64,000 bases of DNA, taken from assembly GCF_016917355.1 (NCBI RefSeq), contig NZ_CP070304.1:992001-1056000 (forward strand). The letters run 5' to 3'. Position 1 is the stretch's first letter. Every line of letters starts with the position of its first letter. This stretch comes from Glaciimonas sp. PAMC28666 (GTDB lineage: Bacteria > Pseudomonadota > Gammaproteobacteria > Burkholderiales > Burkholderiaceae_D). The position numbers and the translations under genes are program-made. Below are positions 63,023 to 63,584 of this stretch, piece by piece. The notes under the pieces were generated by a model, which did not search any database, was not told where the DNA came from, and worked only from the letters and a program-made list of their open reading frames with translations.

Positions 63023-63129
63023 CTGTTTCAGCCGCCAGTCGTGTGGAAAAAACCAACTCGCTGCGCTCAAACATGTTTCCCACAATTCCCGACTGGCGAC
63101 TGAAACAGGCGGCAGCGTCAATGTCGGGG
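63023..63129. repeat. Left arm of a 107-bp inverted repeat
   Basis: The reverse complement of this arm matches 63478-63584 with two substitutions and two compensating 1-base indels. The arm is itself a hairpin: TTTCAGCCGCCAGTCG near its start pairs with CGACTGGCGACTGAAA further on (one mismatch), around a centre containing CCAACTCGCTGCGCTCAAAC. It begins 51 bases upstream of the betA start. Confidence 0.85.
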
Positions 63130-63180
63130 CAGGACAACGGCAACGGCAAGTTCAACGTCAACTTCACCAACAGACCCCAC

Positions 63181-63360
63181 AGCAACAGCAACAGCAACAG
63201 CAACAGCAACAGCAACAGCAACAGCAACAGCAACAGCAACAGCAACAGCAACAGCAACAGCAACAGCAACAGCAACAGCAACAGCAACAGCAACAGCAAC
63301 AGCAACAGCAACAGCAACAGCAACAGCAACAGCAACAGCAACAGCAACAGCAACAGCAAC
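63181..63360. repeat. Hexanucleotide microsatellite, 30 exact copies of AGCAAC
   Basis: Thirty uninterrupted identical AGCAAC units (180 bases). Since the unit is a multiple of three and has no stop codon in any frame, all six frames stay open here (poly-Gln, Ser-Asn, Asn-Gln-like on one strand; poly-Leu, Val-Ala on the other). It lies between the two arms of the 107-bp inverted repeat. Confidence 0.98.
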
Positions 63361-63477
63361 AGCCTCTATCATCGAACCATCAAAGTAAAAAAATTCCAGC
63401 GCCACGCAGATCAACTCGTTAAAACCAGCAAATTCACTGTTTCAAAGGCTGCGGCTTCTGCCGTTGCTTTTGACCTA

Positions 63478-63584
63478 CCCCGACATTGACGCTGCCGCCT
63501 GTTTCAGTCGCCAGCCGGGAATTGTGGGAAAACATGTTTGAGCGCAGCGAGTTGGTTTTTCCACCCGACTGGCGGCTGAAACAG
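63478..63584. repeat. Right arm of the 107-bp inverted repeat
   Basis: Inverted copy of 63023-63129, about 96 percent identical, with the same internal palindrome. The two arms are separated by 348 bases that include the hexanucleotide array. It looks like two copies of a REP/MITE-like palindromic element in opposite orientation. Confidence 0.85.

Follow-up and report, generated by a model that had tools for sequence, protein, structure and literature searches.

The locus described here raises the question of what a nearly perfect inverted repeat enclosing a hexamer array represents, and in which form its structure is conserved. It lies in a 64,000-nucleotide stretch (the window; positions 992,001 to 1,056,000 of contig NZ_CP070304.1) of Glaciimonas sp. 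PAMC28666, at an internal site near 1.055 Mb of the single 5.23-Mb contig. An earlier note, made from the letters alone, had described two inverted 107-base arms differing by two substitutions and two 1-base indels, and global alignment of 63023-63129, taken as reverse complement, with 63478-63584 returned exactly this (104 identities, 2 mismatches and two 1-bp gaps). When the alignment is extended inward to 63148/63459, the arms share 119 identities with 6 mismatches and 2 gaps. Each arm is indeed self-palindromic, displaying an internal palindrome of about 86 bp (63023-63108 and 63499-63584), and a perfect hexamer array (63179-63363; period 6, 30.8 copies by tandem-repeat count) lies between them. 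The right copy runs on outward to about 63706 as a structured tail, while the left copy has none. The site separates two minus-strand genes, named by eye as betB-like and betA-like, the latter a choline-dehydrogenase-like gene starting at 62972, and the neighbouring gene has its closest named protein relatives in Collimonas (84-85%), which makes the host a close relative of that genus.

The right copy is a complete unit on the plus strand (63470-63706; nhmmer score of 225.8 bits, and cmsearch score of 125.1 bits over 63581-63706). Folded as DNA, the segment 63470-63712 reaches -57.6 kcal/mol, compared with -36.4 ± 3.6 kcal/mol for 200 dinucleotide shuffles, and its z-score of -5.9 places the fold beyond chance. 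The predicted structure comprises, in 5' to 3' order on the plus strand, a long stem with variable arms and a central GC-GCA-GC minihairpin at 63542-63548 (63499-63584), a CCC-GAA-GGG minihairpin (63592-63600), a T-rich third strand, TTTTCTTT, at 63620-63627, a triplex hairpin stem (63629-63663) whose GCGAAGC minihairpin loop occupies 63644-63650 and whose purine strand (63651-63658) is the parallel (Hoogsteen) partner of the third strand, and an H-type pseudoknot (63664-63685) in which 63664-63667 pairs with 63674-63677 and 63669-63673 with 63681-63685. On the inner side, a spacer and the inner boundary of the unit, with AAGGCTGC... and a few hexamers, fill 63364-63469 (plus strand). The left unit, on the minus strand at 63020-63148, is cut right after its palindrome, which carries a GC-GCA-GC minihairpin on that strand (63023-63108); it has neither triplex hairpin nor pseudoknot tail, and its cut side faces the start of the betA-like gene. 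Its inner edge and imperfect hexamers span 63109-63178 (minus strand), with arm similarity to the right copy ending at 63148. The near identity of the two ends suggests gene conversion or inverted duplication. As one end is full and the other cut off, and as the array has slipped to about 31 units, the window copy is probably immobile now. Two further repeats were observed in the window: a 116-bp tandem repeat of the unit's tail (63644-64000, plus strand, 3.1 copies), whose later copies retain just the hairpin end and an altered pseudoknot, and short tandem repeats of 24 and 18 bp at 19112-19224.

Copies elsewhere in the same genome revealed that the arm is only one part of a larger unit of about 240 bp. 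Its 5' part comprises the inner edge AAGGCTGC, a hexamer array of the form NTTGNN and a short conserved stretch, TTGACCTACCCCGACATTGA.GCTGCC; the middle comprises the long stem, with variable sequence around ACATGTTTGAGC-GNA-GCGAG, followed by a CCC-GNA-GGG hairpin; and the 3' part comprises the T-rich strand, the hairpin with its GCGAAGC tip, the pseudoknot and a tail, CCACGGAGCA... The first pseudoknot strand is variable (TAGC, TGGC or TCGC). In other genera this layout is kept with unrelated arm sequences. The 84 units of the genus and 99 units of other genera counted below are those in the loci read and fewer than all matches. One locus (L123, 1317-1539) presents a unit in which the third strand now forms the hairpin's 5' arm, apparently through a deletion between two T-rich strands.

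The earlier note had inferred that the array grew between the two copies; growth between two insertions alone is not supported by the other copies. At least three consecutive in-phase TTG hexamers stand at the same inner edge in 66 of 83 scored copies (of 84 in the genus), a single composition shuffle of each copy never gave more than two, and of 385 TTGs lying upstream, 331 share the phase of the TTG within the unit. On these grounds the hexamer array belongs to the element in the host genus. At the inner edges of loci of another genus genome, G003 (such as L141, L143, L144, L145, L148 and L150), higher-order repeats of about 30-36 bp (TTGCAGGCGCAGCCAC...) keep the hexamer phase, and a further long stretch of hexamer-type repeats occurs without a unit in the genome of the window (G000:C1:1240793-1241096, L010).

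Dispersed copies of the arm, for which the earlier note had suggested looking, are present in all five genus genomes, with 12 matches in the genome of the window (G000) and 42, 29, 20 and 23 in G001, G002, G003 and G004, respectively (E ≤ 0.01, some of them partial). With a covariance model and stricter filters, the unit was found in 70 of 200 sampled genomes of the host's order, presumably Burkholderiales (43/109 genera), and in 48 of 274 of its class, presumably Gammaproteobacteria (43/222 genera), with no match in the remaining 130 and 226, respectively. Copy number per genome ranges from a few to 61 (61 units in G088 and 34 in G208). Copy numbers from the surveys of order and class are lower bounds, as scoring there was limited to 18 and 13 candidates per genome, respectively. 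The 84 genus copies are extragenic by rough ORF calls, which misread the window's own flanks; by the same calls, units lie mostly near gene 3' ends (33/80 between convergent and 6/80 between divergent genes), and in co-directional contexts their orientation is nearly free (24 versus 17). The family is thus widespread and structured, and apparently undescribed in the sense that no description of it was found in the open-licence PMC literature. Blastn searches without a positive control revealed no unit in phages (one unit as query) and, in plasmids (two units as queries), only the triplex hairpin in one Fusobacteriota replicon. This replicon, Ilyobacter polytropus plasmid pILYOP01, was matched by the unit query at six places, and the one read displays the triplex hairpin alone (L289, 1470-1588; model match of 33.8 bits). 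A unit scoring 59 bits was also observed on a contig classed as viral (L306, 10208-10331).

In an alignment of 23 diverse tails, 97.5% of the cells of the hairpin and both pseudoknot helices are paired, and 10 of 22 pairs are changed on both sides. On four of five structure measures none of 500 shuffles scored as high as the observed tails, while the fifth, the number of further pair types, was not above the shuffles (442 of 500). When the partners were slid against each other at most 3 pairs were changed on both sides, a comparison that favours the unslid version, as the tail structure was written from one row. Over 60 distinct sequences, the two pseudoknot helices presented 231/300 and 277/300 pairs against shuffle maxima of 218 and 257, respectively, the tally for helix 1 including a fifth pair, in which C faces C in 46 of the 60. 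Related copies are not independent, and these figures are therefore not to be taken as probabilities.

Mismatches inside the stems discriminate between the strands. When the units were folded with Watson-Crick pairs only, single mismatches in the genus comprised 202 G.T, 23 A.C and 118 others; G.T still exceeded A.C after removal of similar copies (49 versus 11) and among deduplicated units outside the genus (64 G.T, 18 A.C, 127 others), and a second method, which found the arms in 81 of 98 units, gave 162 G.T and 27 A.C. The reverse-complement control mirrors this asymmetry. It follows that what is conserved is the 3'-outward strand, as DNA or RNA. The plus strand also folds better than its complement, with DNA energies in 77/81 units and, outside the genus, in 79/99, and with RNA energies in 78/81 and 79/99, respectively. 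The earlier note had held that a large cruciform can form; a double-stranded cruciform is not supported as the functional form, and was rejected as the selected one, on account of stem mismatches that are mostly G.T on one strand.

The T-rich strand is predicted to complete a triple helix with the hairpin. A parallel pyrimidine third strand is read by the code T.A, C.G and G.T, and the T-rich strand, set in parallel order against the purine strand of the hairpin, matches at 717 of 762 positions, compared with a permutation maximum of 631 (201/231 versus 190 when counted per distinct pair). This count covers 96 of 100 tails, the others being two units without a tail, one that starts inside the hairpin and one that lacks the hairpin's 5' arm. 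The best antiparallel fit is poorer than the parallel fit in those asymmetric types that are commonest, and equals it in symmetric types. Outside the genus, where 98 of 99 units were parsed, 46 distinct pairs gave 305 of 322 parallel matches against a maximum of 263 in 5000 permutations, and they include new combinations of third strand and purine strand such as TTCTCTTT/AAGAGAAA and TTCCTTT/AAGGAAA. A third-strand G faces T of the purine strand in 4/4 cells of the 96 tails, three of them of one type, and in 2/4 of the set outside the genus, and a purine-strand C is left without a third-strand partner in 7 and 2 cells, respectively. In sequence, then, the third strand obeys the parallel pyrimidine code with exceptions that include C in the purine strand, and the triplex itself is a prediction from this agreement.

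These observations bear on the possibility that the whole structure is functionless, a neutral palindrome duplicated by template switching with an array grown by slippage. The window pair taken by itself would fit such an origin, with nearly identical arms, an array that is a pure slippage product and a truncated left end. However, copying of inverted repeats does not produce parallel, mirror-type covariation of a third strand, and the same architecture recurs in other genera with unrelated arm sequences. We therefore consider a neutral origin very improbable, the least probable of the readings weighed here.

The identity of the folded strand, DNA or RNA, is approached through the hairpin loops. 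In the genus the loop triplet is GNA at two loop sites in 61/66 and 32/33 units, respectively, the count being confined to units with a matching flanking pattern (66 and 33 of 84); outside the genus the same holds for 18/19 and 51/62 (19 and 62 of 99 units), compared with 0/62 on the minus strand. GNA loops on G-C stems form extraordinarily stable DNA minihairpins, GCGAAGC melting at 78 °C according to the available text of PMC4686876, and this heptamer is the tip of the unit's triplex hairpin. Similarly, the 3' ends of Streptomyces telomeres mostly display GAA, GGA and GTA loops in the part of PMC8743542 available to us. The loops thus favour single-stranded DNA over RNA, short of proof, and covariation does not separate the two.

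The strongest competitor, which we nevertheless judge unlikely, is a structured RNA, in which the unit would be transcribed outward as a 3'-end stabiliser, a bidirectional terminator or a non-coding RNA moving with the element, and in which a triplex and pseudoknot at the 3' end would shield transcripts from exonucleases. Covariation on one strand with G.U-type pairs, an H-type pseudoknot and a triplex are all possible in RNA, the preference of the plus strand holds with RNA energies, and units lie mostly by gene 3' ends. In contrast, GNA triloops are of the class that is stable in DNA, orientation in co-directional contexts is nearly free, and the arrangement of units in head-to-head pairs described below would be unexpected for an RNA gene. 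Nor did Rfam models match the unit at gathering score in 10 loci, where SRP RNA beside one copy was the only match; matches below threshold lie outside the tail (the best, with E = 1.5e-7, being to a microRNA model in the inverted arrays of L122, with 47 bits where 110 are required). A main role as 3'-UTR or terminator was dropped, since by the rough gene calls the orientation of units in co-directional contexts is too free.

Pairing of units was analysed in 20 genomes picked for many matches. Neighbours within 3 kb are arranged head-to-head (-,+), with tails outward, in 49/57 and 31/33 cases in two sets, 80 of 90 in total. The first set holds 188 units (38 plus 150 of 166, with 57/61 from G088, 30/34 from G208, 13/20 from G132 and 17/18 from G124), and the second 100 of 100 units, although one of its 31 pairs, only 120 bp apart, may be a single unit read on both strands. 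Nearly all units belong to (-,+) pairs in G104 (12/12), G095 (6/6), G048 (16/17) and G029 (8/9), none does in G132 (0 of 13 listed) or G080 (0/9), and copies in the genome of the window are mostly single. The start-to-start distance within pairs is mostly 0.4-0.65 kb and extends to 2.7 kb. The two ends are, by inspection, of two different subtypes in nine pairs of G001 and four of G028, while they are alike in a G003 pair (L147) and in the window pair. Pairs in one genus were observed to adjoin another dispersed hairpin repeat, GGCGCAATGCCC... (right flanks of L246, L248 and L269; 582-614 of L245), which is perhaps a preferred target.

The pairs enclose short filler or a varied gene, the longer pairs holding different genes. 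Of 17 enclosed stretches that were read, 12 supplied the 13 proteins of a Pfam scan, in which five exceeded the cut-off, and 8 proteins were scanned against PADLOC; the scan set aside L260 (ordinary-looking chromosomal genes), L261, L263-L265 and the second frame of L257. The enclosed genes include those for a GmrSD_N and Schlafen-AlbA protein (L258), a DUF6988 protein with a further match to the PADLOC candidate PDC-S52 (L241), a protein showing a weak RT-associated PD-(D/E)XK match (L242), a PEP-CTERM protein (L262), an ABM-domain protein (L259) and, in one of the 17 stretches, an IS481-type transposase (L240). The remaining scanned proteins matched no family over the cut-off, and no shared recombinase was found in the 17 stretches, by eye or among the 13 scanned proteins.

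Corresponding sites in relatives differ in the presence of the element. The gap between betB and betA, 1,041 bp here, is empty and 72-73 bp long in all three Collimonas loci, an outcome in keeping with the empty sites that the earlier note had proposed to seek. In Solimicrobium (L044) it measures 424 bp and holds a divergent unit, and in G003 161 bp with an apparent tail remnant. Likewise, a G104 pair beside the SRP RNA gene (ffs) has no counterpart at the equivalent site of G058 and G185, which differs by more than the element, so that no junction or exact ends can be drawn. Empty sites may also have arisen by deletion, and they do not fix the exact ends of the element. Target duplication was not seen in 16 pairs, taken with approximate ends, beyond three 3-bp matches at chance level.

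Presence and absence at corresponding sites, together with the genes inside pairs, also speak against the units being structural DNA maintained by the host, such as a chromosome-organising or replication-pausing site, without being mobile. Wide distribution, intergenic position, conserved structure and the little sign of units on plasmids and phages would be compatible with such a role; yet copy number runs from a few to 61, and most of the sampled genomes of order and class gave no match at all, and we regard this explanation as improbable.

A REPIN/BIME-type element mobilised by a REP-associated tyrosine transposase (RAYT) is, in our estimation, improbable to the same degree. The units resemble REPINs in being extragenic, non-autonomous, foldable as single-stranded DNA and arranged in inverted pairs (as far as the available text of PMC3116915 describes them), and each of the five genus genomes has one Y1_Tnp match, that of the genome of the window being below the curated cut-off. 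In 14 genomes, however, Y1_Tnp matched in 12 (E ≤ 0.001; 11 over the cut-off), the two without a match being G088 and G208, which are among the genomes richest in units. None of 14 regions surrounding Y1 genes in other genomes contains a unit. In addition, the units measure about 240 bp, compared with 20-40 bp, and have no fixed GTAG/CGTC head. RAYT as the mobiliser is thus not supported. The earlier note had seen two opposite copies of a REP- or MITE-like mobile element: a dispersed repeat in opposite copies is what was found, while REP, as defined with RAYT, does not fit. Its idea of a mobile repeat was broadly right, but the evidence favours neither the cruciform nor the REP label.

The explanation that we prefer, and to which we give an even chance, is that the locus represents a non-autonomous mobile element from a class-wide family whose 3'-outward strand is folded for an enzyme acting in trans. 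Two inverted copies of the structured unit would be its ends; at each end the 3'-outward strand would fold as single-stranded DNA into the long stem, the GNA-loop minihairpins, the pyrimidine triplex hairpin and the H-type pseudoknot; and a putative trans-acting enzyme would recognise the folded ends and copy or move whatever they enclose, which is usually short filler (in the host genus, hexamer arrays) and sometimes a cargo gene. The family and its architecture, covariation on one strand, head-to-head pairing and presence or absence between relatives are direct observations. We infer from them single-stranded DNA rather than RNA, mobility through an enzyme in trans and the loss of mobility in the window copy; folded ends read by such an enzyme are the best-supported guess, short of a demonstration. 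More tentatively, and with less confidence, the family could constitute a new class of gene-carrying element across a bacterial class, with paired folded single-stranded DNA ends bearing a selected triple helix and pseudoknot, moved by a novel enzyme and carrying single accessory genes, some of them defence-like. If so, a conspicuous class of intergenic repeats in many bacterial genomes would be explained, and an undiscovered enzyme that reads folded DNA would be indicated. Because changes in the hairpin are accompanied by changes in the third strand, the family would also offer an evolutionary test of triple-helix formation in bacteria, and its uncharacterised and defence-like cargo would make these elements a place to seek new systems.

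Several known systems share parts of this organisation. Integron attC sites are single-strand recombination sites beside cargo genes, conserved in structure and variable in sequence; unlike them, the elements described here have two inverted ends and are mostly solitary. MITEs and mobile insertion cassettes present inverted ends around internal filler or a passenger gene, usually with no transposase inside, and the same arrangement is seen here with L240 as the exception among 17 stretches. In contrast with the simple terminal repeats of MITEs, the ends here are long and structured on one strand, with no target duplication seen, no recombinase shared among the stretches read and no known parent transposon. 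REP, REPIN and BIME sequences, as described in the available parts of PMC3116915, PMC2817692 and PMC3733652, are extragenic, palindromic and non-autonomous, have inverted pairs as the repeating unit and likely fold as single-stranded DNA, and their single units may be remnants. Inverted extragenic pairs are likewise the rule here (80/90 neighbours in 20 rich genomes), but REP/REPIN elements are hairpins of 20-40 bp defined with RAYT, while the unit of about 240 bp has a triplex, a pseudoknot, an inner hexamer array and cargo genes, and no RAYT association was found for it (0 units in 14 Y1 regions; Y1 in 12/14 genomes). Streptomyces telomeres, according to the available text of PMC8743542 and PMC4513846, also fold the 3'-outward strand into several GNA-loop hairpins closed by G:A pairing, with variable stems, conserved loops and two inverted ends. 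They stand at the ends of replicons, whereas the copies described here occupy internal chromosomal sites, and triplex and pseudoknot, both predicted here, do not appear in those parts of the two papers. Finally, the intrastrand triplex motifs of PMC4666352, in the portion available, are single strands able to form three-stranded hairpins, intergenic and in some cases arranged in inverted pairs. The main motif, TMECO, spans 37 nt and is of a G/C-rich purine type, while the predicted triplex described here has a pyrimidine third strand that covaries with its hairpin within a larger conserved unit.
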